A stretch of DNA of 40,933 bases from Rariglobus sp. Its GTDB lineage: Bacteria > Verrucomicrobiota > Verrucomicrobiia > Opitutales > Opitutaceae. This document shows positions 5,259 through 23,726 of this stretch, piece after piece. Below the pieces are notes generated by a model. The model saw only the letters and a program-made list of their open reading frames with translations, searched no databases and was not told the origin of the DNA. Numbering within the stretch: position 1 is the first letter of the stretch; every line of letters starts with the position of its first letter. The position numbers were made by a program, and so were the translations under genes. The DNA lies in assembly GCA_029266495.1 (NCBI GenBank), contig JAQSWS010000062.1, forward strand, positions 1-40,933. Direction: 5' to 3'.

Positions 5259-5333
5259 GCAGGCGTAGCACAATGGATAGTGTAGCGGTCTCCGAAGCCG
5301 TCGATCCGGGTTCGACTCCCGGCGCTTGCACCA
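5259..5333 (+). tRNA. tRNA-Arg (anticodon CCG)
   Basis: 75-nt cloverleaf. The acceptor GCAGGCG pairs with CGCTTGC (one G-U); the D stem is GCAC/GTGT; the anticodon stem closes the loop CTCCGAA with anticodon CCG; the T arm is CCGGG-TTCGACT-CCCGG; discriminator A and an encoded CCA end it. It reads the CGG arginine codon. I saw no duplicated tRNA 3' end in the window that would mark an integrated element. Confidence 0.95.
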
Positions 5334-14988: not shown

Positions 14989-16656
14989 TTAGTCTTTCGC
15001 CAGCGAGCGGTTGAGCGCGCTGACGACGGCCTTGATCGAGGCGAGCTCGATGTTGGTGTCGATACCGGCCCCGAAGAACGTGGTGTTACGCTCGGTCTTT
15101 ATCTGGATGTAGCTGACGGCGCGGGCCTCGGCGCCACTGCCGAGCGAGTGCTCGGAGTAGCTGACGAGTTCGAACCTGGGCAGGCCGGCGGCGCGCAATG
15201 CCTGCACGAAGGCGTCGATCGGGCCGTTGCCGGAGCCGGTGATGATCTTCTCCTGGCCGTAGGCGAGCAGGTCGGCCTGGCAGGTGACCGCGCTGGCGCG
15301 TTCGATCGTGCGGAATTCCTTCAACGTGACCGGCGTCACGCGATCGATGTATTCGCTGATGAACACAGCATGGATGTCCTGCGGCGAGAGCTCGGCGCCC
15401 TTGGTGTCGGCGAGATCGTTGACCACCTTGCCGATTTCCTTGTGCATGAGCTTGGGCAACTGGTAGCCGAACTCGTTTTCGAGAACGTAGGCGACCCCGC
15501 CCTTGCCGGACTGCGAGTTGATCCGGATGATGGCCTTGTAGCTGCGGCCGATGTCGGCCGGATCGATGGGAATGTAGATCACGTCCCACGGGCGGCCGGG
15601 CTTCTGATACGGCCATGACTTTTTGATGGCGTCCTGGTGGGAGCCGCTGAAGGCGGTGAACACCAGTTCGCCGGCATAAGGATGGCGCGGGTGGACCTCC
15701 ATGCGCGTGCAACGCTCGTAGGTGTCGCGGATCGAGTTGATGTCGCTGAAGTCGAGCTTCGGGTCGATGCCGTGCGTGTAGAGGTTCAACGCGACCACGA
15801 CCAGGTCGAGGTTGCCGGTGCGTTCTCCGTTGCCGAAGAGCGTGCCTTCGACGCGGTCGGCCCCGGCCAGCAAGGCGAGCTCGGTGGCGGCCACGCCGGT
15901 GCCGCGGTCGTTGTGCGTGTGCAACGACACGATCGTGCGGTCGCGACGCGTGAGATGCCTGCACATCCACTCGATCTGATCGGCGTGGACGTTGGGCGTC
16001 GCATACTCGACGGTGGCGGGCAGGTTGAGGATGATCTTGTTGCCGGCCGTGGGCTGCCAGACGTCGGTGACGGCTTCACAGATCTCCAGGGCAAACTCGA
16101 GCTCCGTGCTCGTGAAGCTCTCGGGCGAATATTCCAGGCGCAAGTGCGTGCCGGCGTCGATCAACGCCTGGCCGTGCTTCTTGAGCAACGACACGCCCTT
16201 GACCGCGATGGCGACGATGTCGGCCTTGGACGCGCCGAAGACATATTCGCGCTGCTTGGGCGAGGTGGAGTTGTAGAGGTGGAAGATGACGTTTTTCGCA
16301 CCCTTCAAGGCCTCGAGGGAGCGCGTGATGAGCTCCTCGCGGCACTGGCAGAGAATCTGGATGGAGACGTCGTCGGGAATGCGTTTTTCCTCGATGAGGC
16401 GGCGGCAGAAATCGAATTCGATTTGCGAGGCGGAGGGGAAGCCGACTTCGATTTCCTTGAAGCCGATTTTCACCAACAGGTCGAAGAATTCGAGTTTCTC
16501 CTCGACGCTCATGGGCTGGGCGAGGGACTGGTTGCCGTCGCGCAGGTCGACGCTGCACCAGACGGGGGCGCGTTCGAGAACGCGGTTGGGCCATTGGCGG
16601 CCGGTCAATTGGACCGGGGGAAAGGGACGGTATTTCGTAACAGGAGCGGATTGCAT
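14989..16656 (-). CDS. leuA: 2-isopropylmalate synthase (type 2 LeuA)
   Basis: First committed step of leucine synthesis: condenses acetyl-CoA with 2-oxoisovalerate. 555 residues. SVDLRDGNQSL (metal-binding Asp) is at about 35-45, IEVGFPSASQIEFDF follows, HTHNDRGTGVAATELALLAGADRVEGTLFGNGERTGN carries the metal-binding His pair, and a C-terminal LeuA regulatory domain (about 430-550) has YSEHSLGSGAEARAVSYIQI and a GAGIDTNIELASIKAVVSALNR end. Length and sequence fit the actinobacterial-type LeuA rather than the E. coli type. A leader with leucine codons lies upstream. Confidence 0.96.
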   Translation of the reverse strand: MQSAPVTKYRPFPPVQLTGRQWPNRVLERAPVWCSVDLRDGNQSLAQPMSVEEKLEFFDLLVKIGFKEIEVGFPSASQIEFDFCRRLIEEKRIPDDVSIQILCQCREELITRSLEALKGAKNVIFHLYNSTSPKQREYVFGASKADIVAIAVKGVSLLKKHGQALIDAGTHLRLEYSPESFTSTELEFALEICEAVTDVWQPTAGNKIILNLPATVEYATPNVHADQIEWMCRHLTRRDRTIVSLHTHNDRGTGVAATELALLAGADRVEGTLFGNGERTGNLDLVVVALNLYTHGIDPKLDFSDINSIRDTYERCTRMEVHPRHPYAGELVFTAFSGSHQDAIKKSWPYQKPGRPWDVIYIPIDPADIGRSYKAIIRINSQSGKGGVAYVLENEFGYQLPKLMHKEIGKVVNDLADTKGAELSPQDIHAVFISEYIDRVTPVTLKEFRTIERASAVTCQADLLAYGQEKIITGSGNGPIDAFVQALRAAGLPRFELVSYSEHSLGSGAEARAVSYIQIKTERNTTFFGAGIDTNIELASIKAVVSALNRSLAKD

Positions 16657-16663
16657 GGGCGTG

Positions 16664-16793
16664 GACTTAGTCGTGATAACGTTGAACAGACGGGGATCGC
16701 AACGTCGCGTTTACTGGCGGCGGAACGACACGAACAGGCGGACGCACGATCAGCTGCTAGGCAGCGATTAGAGATCGTGCGCGTGACTAAGTC
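16664..16793 (-). promoter_or_regulatory. two GACTWAGTC elements bracketing the leuA leader
   Basis: On the minus strand GACTTAGTC is at 16793-16785, overlapping Leu10 of the leader peptide, and its exact reverse complement GACTAAGTC is at 16672-16664, ending 7 bases before the leuA ATG. In RNA they could pair over 9 bp and cover the leuA initiation region. Each is also nearly palindromic, so they could instead be two operator copies. The choice between these is inference. Confidence 0.5.
16744..16780 (-). promoter_or_regulatory. leader RNA hairpin at the end of the leuA leader peptide
   Basis: On the minus strand GCACGATC pairs with GATCGTGC (8 bp) and encloses an inner stem GCTGC/GCAGC with a CTA loop. 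The leader stop codon TAA lies in the internal bulge, so a ribosome finishing or stalling in the leader would alter this hairpin. Confidence 0.6.
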
Positions 16794-16818
16794 GAAGGGC
16801 CTGACGAAAAGCGTTCAT
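16768..16818 (-). CDS. putative leucine leader peptide of leuA (16 aa)
   Basis: Short frame MNAFRQALRLSHAHDL then TAA, 111 bases before leuA. Leucine is 3 of the last 9 residues (codons CTT, CTT, CTC). It ends inside a strong hairpin, and codons 9-12 contain the 9-base element repeated in reverse complement just before the leuA start. This is the layout expected of amino-acid-controlled attenuation of a biosynthetic gene. Translation is inferred, not shown. Confidence 0.55.
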   Translation of the reverse strand: MNAFRQALRLSHAHDL

Positions 16819-16859
16819 TGAACGCGGCCACCTATCCGGCCGGCCGGTGGAAAAGTCAA
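16811..16859 (-). promoter_or_regulatory. candidate leuA promoter and start-site palindrome
   Basis: On the minus strand a -35-like TTGACT (16859-16854) is 17 bases from a weak -10-like GATAGG (16836-16831). Transcription would start only a few bases before the leader ATG at 16818. The ATG lies in a perfect inverted repeat GCGTTC-AAT-GAACGC (16811-16825), either an operator or a start-codon hairpin. The rest of 16826-16958, up to livK, shows nothing else I can name. Confidence 0.4.
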
Positions 16860-16958
16860 GATTTGCGTCCAGGCCGGTCCTTGCCTGTTTCCCGCCGCAG
16901 AAAGCCCGAGGGCAGGCTTGCTACGTGATGGCGATTGCGGCACTTCCGGCAGCAGCGC

Positions 16959-18122
16959 ATGAAATTCTCCCTTCTCCTCGCCTCGACTCTCGCTGTTCTG
17001 GCTCTCGTCGGTTGCAGCAAAAAATCGGCCGAACCGGCTGTTCGCATCGGACTCAACGTTGAACTCACGGGCGAATTGCCCTCGGTCGGCGCCTCTTCGA
17101 AAAACGCGGTCGAACTGCATGTCGCCCAGATCAACGCCGCGGGCGGCCTGATGCTCGGCGGCAAAAGGGTCCCGATCGAACTCGTGATCGGTGACAACGG
17201 AGCCAAGGCCGACCAGGCCGCCGCGACCACCCAGCGTCTCATCTCGCAGGAAAACGTCCTCGTGATGATCGGCCCCAACGCCAGCTCATGCGCGATCCCC
17301 GCCTCCGAGATCGCCGAGTCGCTCAAGACCCCGATGATTTCCCCGTGGTCGACCAACCCGAAGACCACGGTCGACGCGCAGACCGGCAAACATAAGGCTT
17401 ATGTATTGCGCGGCTGCTTCACCGATCTCTTCCAGGCCGGCGTGCTCGCGAAGTTCACCCTCAAGGATCTCGAGGCGAAACGCGCCGCCGTCCTGTTCGA
17501 CGTCGCTTCCGAAGCGCCCAACGGCCAGGCCAACCTCTACAAGGAAACCTTCACCAAGCTCGGCGGTGTCATCACCGCCTTCGAAACCTACACGACCGGG
17601 GACCGCGATTTTTCCGCGCAACTCACGAAGATCCGCGCCTCCAACCCCGACGTGATCTTTCTTCCCGTTTACTACACCGACGTTCCGCTCATCACCCAGC
17701 AGGCCCGCCAGCTTGGCATCACCGCGCGTTTTGTCGGCAGCGATGCCTGGAGCTCGCCCGAGATCGTCAAGCTCGGCGGCGCCGCGCTCGAAGGCGCGTA
17801 TTTCTGCAATCACTACTCGACGCAGATCGCCACCCCCGCCGCGAAGAAGTTCATGGACGATTACCAGGCCAAATATGGACAGGCCCCCGATGACATCGCC
17901 GCGCTTTCCTATGATTCGATCGGTTTCATGATGAAGGCGATCGAGGCCGCCGGCGTGACCGACCGCCAGGCCGTGCGTGCCGCGCTCGCGTCCATCCCCA
18001 GCTACGAGGGCGTGACCGGCGTGATGCGTTTTGCCGAGGGCAGCGGCGACCCGGTGAAGAGCGCGGTCATCCTCCAGATCAAGGACGGCCAGTTCATCTG
18101 GGTGGCCAACGCCGCGCCCTGA
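16959..18122 (+). CDS. livK: branched-chain amino-acid ABC transporter, substrate-binding lipoprotein
   Basis: 387 residues. A lipoprotein signal (MKFSLLLASTLAVLALVGC, lipid-bearing Cys19) is followed by a Peripla_BP_6 domain: VRIGLNVELTGELPSVGASSKNAVELHV, VIGDNGAKADQAA, VLMIGPNASSCAIPASE, VIFLPVYYTDVPLITQQARQLG. The start at 16959 places the signal peptide correctly. In Gram-negative bacteria it would be anchored in the periplasm and deliver Leu/Ile/Val or a related amino acid to LivHMGF. It is divergent from leuA, so import and synthesis of leucine are neighbours. Confidence 0.93.
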   Translation: MKFSLLLASTLAVLALVGCSKKSAEPAVRIGLNVELTGELPSVGASSKNAVELHVAQINAAGGLMLGGKRVPIELVIGDNGAKADQAAATTQRLISQENVLVMIGPNASSCAIPASEIAESLKTPMISPWSTNPKTTVDAQTGKHKAYVLRGCFTDLFQAGVLAKFTLKDLEAKRAAVLFDVASEAPNGQANLYKETFTKLGGVITAFETYTTGDRDFSAQLTKIRASNPDVIFLPVYYTDVPLITQQARQLGITARFVGSDAWSSPEIVKLGGAALEGAYFCNHYSTQIATPAAKKFMDDYQAKYGQAPDDIAALSYDSIGFMMKAIEAAGVTDRQAVRAALASIPSYEGVTGVMRFAEGSGDPVKSAVILQIKDGQFIWVANAAP

Positions 18123-18177
18123 GCGGTTCACGGTCATTCCACGGCTTTCCGCCAAGGAAACGCTCTCCGAATAACGC

Positions 18178-18982
18178 ATGGAATATTTCGCGCAGCAGGC
18201 CATCAACGCGATCCAGCTCCCACGGCGATGTGTTCATGGTGGGTGCGTTTGCCTGCCTTCTCCTGGTCTCGCTCGTGCCGCTGCCTTTCATCGTTGCGCT
18301 GCTCGCGGTCATGGTGATCACCGCGGTGCTCGGTGCGTTGATCGAGCGCGTGGCTTATCGTCCGCTGCGGCAGGCGCCGCGCGTTTCCGCGATCATCACG
18401 GCGCTTGGCTGCGGGCTGGTCATTCAAAACACCACGCTGAGCCTCAGTCCCTACGCGCGCCCGATGCCGCGGTTGTTCGAGTCAAGGACGTTTGAGTTTG
18501 CAGGCGTCACCCTGAACTCGCTCCAGCTTTTCATCATCGGGGTGTCGGGAGTGCTCATGCTCGGGCTCGATTTTGTCATTCGAAAAACCGACTGGGGAAT
18601 CGCGTTGCGGGCGACCGCGAGTGACCGCGCGACGGTTCCTCTCATGGGGGTGCCGGTCAATCGCGTGATCTCGCTCACCTTTGCGGTGGGCGGTGCGCTC
18701 GCCGGGGCGGCCGGCGTGCTCTACAGCCAGGCGTATCCGGTGGTGGGCGCCGCCATGGGCGCGCTCATTGGCTGGAAGGCCTTCGTTGCGGCGGTGATCG
18801 GGGGCATCGGCAGCATTCGCGGGGCGGTGCTGGGCGGCTACATCCTTGGCGTGGTCGAGGTGACGACGGTGGTCGTGCTGCCTTCGACGTGGCGCGACCT
18901 GATCGCCTATTCGCTGCTGCTGGTGATCTTGATCTTCAAACCCAACGGCCTGCTCGGAAGCGCCGCGCAGCAAAAAGTCTAA
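18178..18982 (+). pseudogene. livH: livH permease with frameshifting internal deletion
   Basis: Inner-membrane permease of the branched-chain amino-acid transporter. ATG at 18178 gives MEYFAQQAINAIQL, a normal LivH N-terminus. At 18220 the sequence jumps to HGDVFMVGAFAC, which in intact LivH follows a conserved stretch of the type GS-YALIALGYTMVYGI-LINFA. About 24 codons are missing and the two parts are in different frames (18178 versus 18221, offset 43). The downstream part (18221-18982) is open and typical: LIERVAYRPLRQ, EVTTVVVLPSTWRDL-like tail. Either the gene is broken or the sequence has a local deletion error. Confidence 0.8.
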
Positions 18983-18985
18983 GCC

Positions 18986-19981
18986 ATGCCCACGCCCCGC
19001 ACCCTTGGTTCCTCCGTCGCCGGCTGCCGCTGGGCGCTGCCGGTGCTGGCGGCCTCGGCCTTTCTGGCGGCACTGCTGCATCAGCAATGGGCTTTGTTCA
19101 ACGGCTACACCGAGTTCGTGCTGATCACCGCCGGCATCAACATCATCCTCTGCGCCAGTCTTAACTTGGTGAATGGTTACATGGGCGAGTTCTCCGTGGG
19201 CCACGCCGGCTTCATGGCGGTCGGCGCCTATGCGGCCGGCCTGCTGGCGGTGAAAATTCTCCCGGGGGCCACGCCCGTCTGGGCGTTTCCGCTGGTGGTC
19301 GCCTTCGGCGGGGTGATCGCGGCGGCGATCGGGTTTCTGCTCGCATTGCTTTCATTCAAGACCCGTGGCGACTACCTCGCGATCATCACGCTGGCGTTTC
19401 TGATGATCGTGAAATCCGCGCTGGAAAACATCCCGTTCACCGGCGGGCCGCGCGGGCTCCTCGGCATCGAGCGGCTCACCACGCTGCCGCAGACAGTCGC
19501 CTGGGTGATCGTGACGCTCTGGGTGATCCGCAACCTGGTGTATTCAAAATTTGGACGTGGCATCACCGCGATCCGGGAGGACGAGCTGGCGGCCGGCGCG
19601 ATGGGCGTGCGCACGCGCGAGGCCAAGATCCTTGCCTTTGTGGTGTCGTCGTTTTTCGGCGGCGTGGCCGGGTCGCTCTTCGCGCACCAGCTCCAGTTCA
19701 TCAATCCGGCGACCTTCGACATCATCCGGTCCACGGACATCCTGGTCATGGTTTACATCGGAGGGGTGGCGTCGCTCACGGGTTCGCTCCTCGGCGCCGT
19801 GCTCGTGACCGTGCTGGCGCAGCTGCTCCAGCCGCTCGGCACGTGGCGCGCGGTGGTGATGCCGCTCACGCTGGTTTTTCTCATGCTTTTCCGTCCGCGC
19901 GGGTTGCTCGGCCTGCGGGAGTTCGCCTGGCTTTTGCCCGGCCGCGAACTGCTCCAGCGCATAAAGGAGAAGTCGCCGTGA
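18986..19981 (+). CDS. livM: branched-chain amino-acid ABC transporter permease LivM
   Basis: 331 residues, about eight to nine membrane segments. The conserved LNLVNGYMGEFSVGHAGFMAVGAYAAG is at about 52-80, FKTRGDYLAIITLAFLMIVKSALENIPFTGGPRGL in the middle, and KFGRGITAIREDELAAGAMGV is the loop contacting the ATPases. The start is 3 bases after the livH stop. The livG start overlaps its stop. Confidence 0.93.
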   Translation: MPTPRTLGSSVAGCRWALPVLAASAFLAALLHQQWALFNGYTEFVLITAGINIILCASLNLVNGYMGEFSVGHAGFMAVGAYAAGLLAVKILPGATPVWAFPLVVAFGGVIAAAIGFLLALLSFKTRGDYLAIITLAFLMIVKSALENIPFTGGPRGLLGIERLTTLPQTVAWVIVTLWVIRNLVYSKFGRGITAIREDELAAGAMGVRTREAKILAFVVSSFFGGVAGSLFAHQLQFINPATFDIIRSTDILVMVYIGGVASLTGSLLGAVLVTVLAQLLQPLGTWRAVVMPLTLVFLMLFRPRGLLGLREFAWLLPGRELLQRIKEKSP

Positions 19982-20751
19982 CGCCGTTGCTCCAGCTGGA
20001 TGCGGTGACTAAGCGCTTCGGCGGCCTCTGTGCCGTGTCGGCGGCGCGCCTCGAGGTGCAGGCGGGGCACACGCATGGCATCATCGGCCCCAACGGCGCG
20101 GGCAAGACCACGCTTTTTAATCTGATCACCGGCATCTACACGCCGGATGAAGGTGCGATTCGTTTCGAAGGAACGAACATCGCCGGGTTTCGTCCGAACC
20201 AGATCGCCGCGCGAGGCATCGGGCGCACGTTTCAAAACATCCGCCTGTGTCGCGATCTCACGGTCCTGGACAATGTCCGCATGGCCTATGATGTGCGGCT
20301 CACGTCCTCGACCTGGTCCGCCTTGCTCAACCTCCCTTCGCACCGGCGCGAGGAGCAACGCTCCATCGAGGGCAGCTTTGAGCTGTTAAAGGCTTTCGGC
20401 ATGGATGCGATGGCCGGTCAACTGGCGGGCGGTCTGCCGTATGGCCTGCAGCGCAGGCTGGAAATCGCCCGGGCGCTCGCGCTCAAGCCGCGCCTGCTCC
20501 TCCTTGATGAGCCGGCCGCGGGCATGAACTCGGCCGAGACATTGCGCCTGATGGAATTTCTTCGCTGGGTGCGCGAGCATTTCGATGTGACCCTGGTGCT
20601 CATCGAGCATCACATGAAACTCGTGATGGGGCTGTGCGATCACATCACCGTGCTCGATTTCGGCGTGACCATCGCGGACGGCACGCCGGCCGAAATCCAA
20701 GGCAACCGCCGGGTGATCGACGCCTATCTGGGCGAGGAGGTGGAGGCATGA
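19978..20751 (+). CDS. livG: branched-chain amino-acid ABC transporter ATPase LivG
   Basis: 257 residues. Walker A GPNGAGKTT at about 37-45, Q-loop FQNIRLCRDLTVLDNV, signature region LPYGLQRRLEIARAL and Walker B LLLLDEPAAGMN, then LIEHHMKLVMGLCDHI. The GTG start at 19978 overlaps the livM TGA (GTGA) and has an AAGGAG ribosome site 7 bases upstream, one of few clear ones here. A 65-residue LivG-specific helical insert follows the Q-loop. Confidence 0.94.
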   Translation: MTPLLQLDAVTKRFGGLCAVSAARLEVQAGHTHGIIGPNGAGKTTLFNLITGIYTPDEGAIRFEGTNIAGFRPNQIAARGIGRTFQNIRLCRDLTVLDNVRMAYDVRLTSSTWSALLNLPSHRREEQRSIEGSFELLKAFGMDAMAGQLAGGLPYGLQRRLEIARALALKPRLLLLDEPAAGMNSAETLRLMEFLRWVREHFDVTLVLIEHHMKLVMGLCDHITVLDFGVTIADGTPAEIQGNRRVIDAYLGEEVEA

Positions 20752-21464
20752 GCGAGGTCGTGTTATCGGTCGGGAACCTCACCGTTGGCTACGGCGACAT
20801 CCGGGCGGTCAAGGGCATCTCCTTCGAGGTGCAGGCGGGGGAGATTTTTACGCTGATTGGCGCCAATGGCGCAGGCAAAACCTCCACGCTCCGGGCGCTC
20901 TCCGGCATGCTGCGTTACGGTGGCACGGTGTGCCTCAACGGACGTGACCTGCGCGGACTGGCGGCCGAGGAGATCGTGACGGCCGGCCTCGCCCATGTGC
21001 CGGAGGGGCGGAGGGTGTTCGGGCCGCTCACGGTGTTGGAGAACCTGAAGCTCGGGGCGTGGATCCGCCGCAGCCAGCGCGCGGCGGTGGCGGCGGATTT
21101 GGAGCGGATGTTCACGTTTTTCCCGCGTCTGCACGAGCGTCGCGACCAGCTCGCCGGCACGCTTTCGGGCGGCGAGCAACAGATGCTGGCCGTGGCCCGC
21201 GCGTTGATGAGCCAGGCACGGCTGCTGGTGCTGGACGAACCCTCGATGGGGCTTGCTCCCAAGCTGGTGAAGGAAATTTACGCGGTGTTGCGTGAGATCA
21301 ACCGGGAGGGGGTCACGCTCCTGCTGGTCGAGCAGAACGCGAATCTGGCCCTGCGTCTTGCGGATCGGGCGGCGGTGCTTGAGACCGGGGTGATCACGCT
21401 GGCGGGTGAAAGTGCCGCACTGTTGCAGGACGCACGCGTGCGCGAGGCTTACCTGGGCGCTTAG
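20748..21464 (+). CDS. livF: branched-chain amino-acid ABC transporter ATPase LivF
   Basis: 238 residues. Walker A GANGAGKTS at 38-46, HVPEGRRVFGPLTVLENL (LivF hallmark), signature LSGGEQQMLAVARAL, Walker B LLVLDEPSMGLAP and LLVEQNANLALRLADR. The ATG overlaps the livG stop (ATGA), so the two ATPases are translationally coupled. Last gene of the liv operon. Confidence 0.95.
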   Translation: MSEVVLSVGNLTVGYGDIRAVKGISFEVQAGEIFTLIGANGAGKTSTLRALSGMLRYGGTVCLNGRDLRGLAAEEIVTAGLAHVPEGRRVFGPLTVLENLKLGAWIRRSQRAAVAADLERMFTFFPRLHERRDQLAGTLSGGEQQMLAVARALMSQARLLVLDEPSMGLAPKLVKEIYAVLREINREGVTLLLVEQNANLALRLADRAAVLETGVITLAGESAALLQDARVREAYLGA

Positions 21465-23612: not shown

Positions 23613-23708
<96 letters not shown>

Positions 23709-23726
23709 ACTTTATTTTTGCATATC

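Follow-up and report, generated by a model that had tools for sequence, protein, structure and literature searches.

A conserved leucine-codon leader upstream of leuA in Opitutaceae and its possible pairing with the leuA start

The leader of the enterobacterial leucine operon (RF00512) is a short reading frame that contains rare leucine codons, and in erm-type translational attenuation a ribosome stalled on a leader makes the start of the following gene accessible. In the actinobacterial LEU element, leucine codons base-pair with the ribosome-binding site of leuA, and a conserved pseudoknot is among its described features; its authors state that other attenuator elements are missing, and they favour a regulatory protein, since published leader mutations do not fit classical attenuation (PMC1262725). 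Here we analysed the region upstream of leuA in a 40,933-nucleotide stretch of Rariglobus sp. (Verrucomicrobiota, Opitutaceae; contig JAQSWS010000062.1 of assembly GCA_029266495.1), which we call the window in its whole length. A short leader open reading frame (ORF) precedes leuA on its minus strand, and comparison with relatives indicates that this conserved, coding leucine leader is real and widespread in Opitutaceae. The features on which the argument depends are the following.

14989..16656, minus strand: leuA, 2-isopropylmalate synthase, 555 aa (Pfam HMGL-like, IPMS_D2 and LeuA_dimer; TIGR00970 above cut-off)
16768..16818, minus strand: leader ORF MNAFRQALRLSHAHDL*, 16 codons, stop included (from the sequence and its conservation in relatives)
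16789..16797, minus strand: candidate control codons Leu8 CTT, Arg9 CGA and Leu10 CTT (from motif conservation and codon rarity)
16785..16793, minus strand: element E1, GACTTAGTC, in codons 9-12 (exact with E2 in G000, G008, G001 and G003)
16664..16672, minus strand: element E2, GACTAAGTC, perfect reverse complement of E1, ending 7 nt before the leuA ATG
16742..16782, minus strand: hairpin H1, with a 10-bp stem and a 5-bp apical stem (from a 105-leader alignment)

The present leader shares three traits with the LEU element: leucine codons in an ORF ahead of leuA, a base stem between these codons and the leuA start, and internal helices. This base stem was found in the window, in three relatives of its genus and in a second group of leaders, not across the family. 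The LEU element carries a run of leucines, whereas the leucines here stand at codons 8, 10 and 16 with Leu-Arg-Leu (LRL) as the family core, and the LEU stem covers the Shine-Dalgarno box of leuA, whereas no such motif (GGAG, GAGG or AGGA at -16 to -4 of leuA) was found in any of the genomes of 125 leaders, window included. The two also belong to different phyla, and the H1 hairpin and a pairing partner that varies by lineage distinguish the present leader. Since the leucine run and the Shine-Dalgarno stem are lacking, we do not class it as a LEU member, although the Opitutaceae leader may be functionally like that element. With the enterobacterial leader it shares leucine codons in a short leader; the window differs in that no terminator was seen after these codons and no Rfam family matched. 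Compared with erm-type attenuation, the proposed signal here is leucine shortage instead of an antibiotic. The original prediction for this DNA had held that no such leader is known from the lineage, and in the openly licensed literature searched we likewise found no description of a leuA or amino-acid leader from Verrucomicrobiota.

Relatives of leuA were gathered by protein similarity from 94 whole genomes, 85 of which gave a LeuA match (some to distant paralogues only), and from the best 80 public contigs. Nearly all carried the titles Opitutaceae, Opitutus, Opitutae or Verrucomicrobia, and 130 distinct leuA upstream regions were examined. The motif CGACT[TA]A was present at -117 to -259 in 107 of them, and these together with 18 further leaders formed the set of 125. 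Because leader rows were picked by this motif, CGA and the CTT or CTA at Leu10 are fixed in them by the selection itself; the selection-free figure comes from the upstreams chosen by leuA identity of at least 73%, from which L099 was omitted (33 nt of upstream sequence only). Among these, 103 of 104 carried the motif and likewise 103 of 104 had CTT or CTA at Leu10 rather than the commoner CTC or CTG. The sole exception to the motif was genome G023 (L125), where a TTGACTT site lies near the leuA ATG; the leader of G022, another of the leuA-chosen upstreams, is doubtful and starts with GTG.

In the window the leader reads ATG AAC GCT TTT CGT CAG GCC CTT CGA CTT AGT CAC GCG CAC GAT CTC TAA, with leucine at three of its 16 residues (codons 8, 10 and 16). 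Six genes of the window use CTT for 9.6% of their leucine and CGA for 0.7% of their arginine codons, which makes both minor codons there. The core of the family leaders was QALRL[TSI], which recurs at leuA, and LRL was found in 120 of 123 motif-chosen leaders with an in-frame ATG, the other two of the 125 being excluded from all 123-leader counts. The codon before CGA, Leu8, encoded leucine in 122 of 125 leaders, with 31 synonymous third-base variants against three non-leucine codons, which is what selection on the amino acid would give. This count was anchored on the motif and is thus independent of the choice of leader start. Seventeen leaders had more than one candidate ATG; promoter and peptide counts used the nearest, while the farthest in-frame ATG was used for the E2-column, Shine-Dalgarno, Leu8-codon and 66%-cluster analyses. 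The sequence thus bears the general mark of a ribosome-mediated leucine leader: a short conserved coding frame that contains leucine codons and precedes a leucine gene.

Two leader types could be distinguished. Type I leaders (45 of 125) stop right after LRL[STI], directly after E1, and Type II leaders (80 of 125) continue past LRL, reaching AHDL in 40 of 78. Within the genus, the window and three relatives had Type II leaders and the nine others Type I. Four divergent leaders (L133, L134, L135 and L138) read LRL[TS]xxD[ST]L and kept CGACTTA with another hairpin arm, which in L133 is GACAGCC..GGCTGTC followed by GGGACG. Genome G045 carried two leuA genes (contigs C13 and C301); both have a leader-type ORF, with the endings LRLPLK and NRLPLA.

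The original prediction of a 16-codon leader running into a strong hairpin before leuA was borne out, and both frame and hairpin were conserved far beyond the genus. The 10-bp stem of H1 (16782-16773 with 16751-16742) and its apical stem (16765-16761/16757-16753) were both present in the window fold, and the 5′ arm lies inside the end of the leader ORF. In an alignment of 105 of 110 leaders, with the divergent rows L122, L133, L134, L135 and L138 omitted, 98.9% of cells were paired in the H1 stem and 93.3% in the apical stem. Covariation of H1 was 0.248 against 0.162 in shuffles (0/500 as high) and at most 0.094 with the strands slid; over the whole structure, 138 cells carried changes on both sides where shuffles gave 55, a contrast inflated by kinship. 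Words of H1 showed little or no complementarity to the leuA start (own versus swapped, p=0.62). Two further structures were predicted in the window.

16735..16803, minus strand: outer stem enclosing H1, CAGGC/GCCTG (paired in 63.3% of cells across the family alignment, hence not general)
16695..16727, minus strand: second predicted hairpin H2, limits approximate (alifold on four window-type sequences)

A covariance model built from the 105 leaders (R1) matched 171 of 252 family genomes, a count and not an independent test, with one match per genome except in G216, which had two (contigs C3 and C424). Some of the genomes without a match contained only a distant LeuA (G021, G039, G049 and G052). 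In a 288-genome sample of the phylum R1 matched 21 genomes, and the 18 strong matches were all from Opitutaceae. Rfam, including its T-box and leucine leader families, gave no match at gathering score, and relaxed limits gave one, at chance level. A further perfect hairpin, GCGTTCAATGAACGC (16811-16825, minus strand), encloses the leader start codon and is followed by TTTT; it is not kept in G008.

A promoter-like site was found at a fixed distance from the leader.

16854..16859, minus strand: predicted -35 hexamer TTGACT (position of TTGAC conserved among leaders)
16831..16836, minus strand: predicted -10 hexamer GATAGG, 17 nt after the -35 and 12 nt before the leader ATG

In all 119 leaders whose upstream sequence was long enough, TTGAC occurred between 70 and 20 nt ahead of the leader ATG, at a median distance of 41 nt (5-95%: 38-43); 2.5 such leaders would be expected from shuffles. 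The end of the -10 lay a median of 12 nt from the ATG in the same leaders (5-95%: 9-15), and this hexamer was weak, matching TATAAT at two to four of six positions in 118 of 119. A scan of the window with a stricter promoter consensus detected no promoter at the leader. From these positions, we infer that a 5′ untranslated region (UTR) of only some 5 nt would precede the leader ATG, so that the mRNA would be near-leaderless.

The complementarity between codons 9-12 and a sequence 7 nt before the leuA ATG, on which the original prediction was built, was confirmed as the E1:E2 match. Against the last 45 nt before leuA, the duplex gave p~0.01 relative to mononucleotide shuffles, and the folding energy of the 204-nt leader was mildly unusual (z -2.14, 7/200 shuffles equally good); the case rests on conservation. 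The check in relatives, which had been called for at the outset, upheld the leader, its leucine codons and H1 covariation; the 9-mer was exact only in the window and three of 12 genus relatives (G000, G008, G001 and G003). A family-wide role of E1:E2 was rejected, since the pairing is absent from most relatives.

Over all 125 leaders, the E1 region was more complementary to the last 40 nt before leuA than shuffles were in 21 of 80 Type II leaders at p<0.05 and in 12 of 80 at p<0.01, against 4 of 45 and 0 of 45 Type I leaders (Mann-Whitney p=0.002). Among Type II leaders, the E1 word reached z<-2 in 21 of 80, compared with 2 and 0 of 80 for the neighbouring leader words, and one window further upstream of leuA it did so in 3 of 68 versus 20 of 80. 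The Type II bias fits the geometry, because a ribosome at a Type II stop would free E1 and one at a Type I stop would cover it. For tests of own against swapped tails, the 123 leaders were reduced to 56 clusters (greedy, 70%), which are related by descent and not independent; the E1 word gave p=0.001. An earlier single-linkage clustering at 66% was uninformative, placing 114 of 123 leaders in one cluster; its eight clusters, with some starts misplaced, gave p=0.03 for the E1 word and p=0.99 for the leader-start word described below. Most cases outside the genus formed one group of similar leaders, assembled by eye and not from a tree, with GTCAGTCGA or near variants about 20 nt before leuA. 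Outside the genus, G018 carried CTG..AGTCGC where others had CTT..AGTCGA, one compensatory change.

A scan of leader words revealed a second complementarity, between the leader start AUGCGAAAC and GUUUCGC beside the leuA AUG, in many relatives. Runs of at least six Watson-Crick pairs between the leader start and the last 20 nt were present in 26 of 123 leaders versus 3.5 in shuffles; by cluster, the figures were 14 of 56 versus 1.8, and for at least seven pairs 9 of 56 versus 0.2. Own tails exceeded swapped ones (p=0.013), and a 'mid' leader word, which overlaps the start word by some 4 nt, gave p=0.02 in all clusters and 0.03 in Type I. GTTTCG[CT] preceded 32 of 123 leuA genes and 5 of 637 control ORFs from the fetched loci, many of these controls being possibly spurious. 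In G014 and L270 the pairing was kept in shifted form (ATGCGAA with TTCGCAT). The two motifs were associated across the 56 clusters (11/5/2/38, Fisher p=1.8e-6) and, as they had been picked after seeing the data, a held-out set served as check. It began with 72 regions, from which 28 training repeats, 21 regions without a recognised leuA start and one without the core were dropped; the remaining 22 leaders, of the same family and partly of the same genera, are distinct yet not independent by descent. The leader-start pairing recurred in 5 of these 22 against 0.2 expected, with a motif table of 4/0/3/15 (Fisher p=0.005). It was absent from the window and its three E1:E2 relatives, and the two pairings rarely coincided in 123 leaders (both in 1, start only in 25, E1 only in 18, neither in 79; p=0.07). 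Altogether, pairing between the leader and the leuA start looks recurrent, with changing partners.

We then compared predicted folds for different ribosome positions. With Leu8 in the A site, the 19 E1:E2 leaders went from 7.1 predicted pairs between leader and leuA to 1.1, and the 25 start-pairing leaders from 6.35 to 1.8, while a ribosome at the stop codon left 5.4 pairs in each of the two groups. With Leu10 in the A site, 0.76 pairs were left in E1:E2 leaders versus 6.1 in start-pairing leaders. The original proposal that a leucine-stalled ribosome frees the leuA start is therefore supported by the folds, in which a ribosome at Leu8 removes the pairing and one at the stop mostly keeps it; the codon 9-12 pairing it relied on is not general. 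The folds, the missing Shine-Dalgarno motif and a number of terminator-like sites little above shuffle level together favour translational attenuation through stalling at the first control leucine, and we consider it moderately probable that leuA is controlled by ribosome stalling on the leader in this way. The short leader ORF, started near the mRNA 5′ end, would sense charged leucine tRNA through its rare leucine codons, the CTT at Leu8 and Leu10. When leucine is plentiful, the ribosome would complete the leader, and a leader segment would pair with the start of leuA, where a Shine-Dalgarno motif is lacking, so that translation is held down; when leucine is short, the ribosome would stall around Leu8 and cover the pairing segment, and leuA would be translated. 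The segment would be E1, pairing with E2, in the window and three genus relatives, and the leader start, pairing with GUUUCGC, in many other Opitutaceae.

A broader formulation is that the leader ORF itself, through its start or its Leu-Arg-Leu codons, supplies the anti-start strand for a leuA start without Shine-Dalgarno motif, and that lineages have swapped this partner while keeping the sensor peptide and the hairpin on a near-leaderless mRNA. We put this forward tentatively, as a plausible and previously unreported switch. Such a leader would be a clear and widespread verrucomicrobial example: control codons are named for it, a covariance model describes it, two pairings can be tested, and its gene has no Shine-Dalgarno motif. 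It would allow tests of how evolution can replace a regulatory RNA pairing while the sensor is kept, and of whether the actinobacterial LEU element, which is poorly understood, works likewise.

Several observations weigh against control by pairing and stalling. The ribosome folds use assumed footprint limits, accessibility of the leuA start in the window is predicted to rise only modestly (0.47 to 0.61), and a slight gain at Leu8 is seen even in leaders with neither pairing (0.568 to 0.599, p=0.03). A ribosome at Leu10 leaves the start unshielded in start-pairing leaders, so that Leu8 or an earlier leucine must act there. The majority class of 79 leaders shows neither pairing, R1 finds nothing in 81 of the 252 family genomes, and the kinship of the clusters applies to every test by cluster. 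Only 4 of the 13 genomes of the genus have an exact E1:E2, with no covariation among these, its held-out signal was weak (3 of 16 Type II leaders at p<0.05), and G054 and L164 (CTC..AGTCGA) break the pair compensated in G018. Finally, the start word is also in excess, though a smaller one, further upstream of leuA, with 7 versus 1.9 at -40..-21, 6 versus 2.4 at -60..-41 and 5 versus 2.7 of 123 in the third window above the last 20 nt.

The main rival is Rho-dependent termination before leuA. Rho would load on a C-rich stretch once the leader ribosome has left, stalling would prevent this, and the pairings would be secondary. The last 60 nt before leuA had mean C and G contents of 0.355 and 0.182 (125 leaders; the usual C content of UTRs was not a baseline), sites resembling intrinsic terminators were near shuffle level (30 of 125 leaders versus 20.8), and H1, the most conserved structure tested, also agrees with this explanation. 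Rho alone leaves unexplained why complementarity is concentrated in the last 20-40 nt and why it recurs in held-out leaders, and we regard it as unlikely, though the strongest of the alternatives.

It is also conceivable, and somewhat less likely still, that the leader acts in another way and that the four genus genomes owe their E1:E2 match to chance, kept by descent. Most relatives lack the match, and the background probability of nine invariant columns is about 0.005. Beyond the nine columns, 17 nt around E2, TATCACGACTAAGTCCA, were invariant in the four genomes, compared with 41 of the 74 other columns from H1 to leuA. When trees of leuA were built for 12 of the 13 genus genomes and six outgroups (G005, with a partial leuA, was omitted), G003 branched first and the other three lay among Type I genomes without E2, a scatter that chance kept by descent does not readily explain given the 17 identical nucleotides; the match would thus be old and repeatedly lost, or have moved with the leader. 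E2 also tracked the long leader, being present in 4 of 4 long and 0 of 9 short genus leaders, which transfer of the whole leader could explain as well.

Classical transcription attenuation with an intrinsic terminator is far less probable. Leader peptides followed by hairpins are typical of proteobacterial amino-acid operons, and the 30 leaders with some terminator-like site could be counted in its favour, if their number were not so close to that of the shuffles. The only such site in the window between 16500 and 17000 is located at the leader start, ahead of the leucine codons. An intrinsic terminator as the main device was rejected on this count and because none was seen between the leucine codons and leuA in the window; to that extent the original claim of a translational and not a transcriptional mechanism held, with Rho as the transcriptional alternative still standing. 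That a regulator of the divergent liv-type genes of the window also binds GACTTAGTC and GACTAAGTC as two palindromic DNA sites is scarcely credible and was rejected: each 9-mer is palindromic around one base, but the E1 codon motif is mostly non-palindromic in other leaders and livJ was not found near leuA at the ten genus relatives other than G001 that were searched (loci of 3.9 to 7.7 kb, some ending at a contig edge), including the E1:E2-bearing G008 and G003.

Leucine-rich ORFs were also present beyond the motif-bearing leaders. Among 41 more distant leuA upstreams (21 without the motif, 20 unchecked), 11 had a short ORF with at least five leucines in nine codons, for example MNTTCPILGLLLLGLPLLLPLGE; none of the 41 reverse strands had one, and the rate in shuffles was 2.3%. 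Verrucomicrobiota may commonly carry leucine leaders ahead of leuA. Short leucine-rich ORFs were observed in the same order (L141, L192 and L143), elsewhere in the phylum (L203 and L208) and in divergent family members (L130 and L131). L141, L143, L130 and L131 are without a CGACTTA leader, and L192, L203 and L208 were unchecked for CGACTTA. Several at order level have LLP or RLP as their last residues, at a short hairpin of G and C (CTCCCC..GGGGAG, for instance).

Divergent from leuA in the window is a branched-chain amino-acid transport operon (16935-21464, plus strand) with, according to Pfam, a substrate-binding protein, two permeases and at least one ATPase. Its livJ adjoins leuA in the window and in G001. 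Rfam matches further identified a small signal recognition particle RNA (23613-23711, plus strand) and a tRNA (5259-5330, plus strand).

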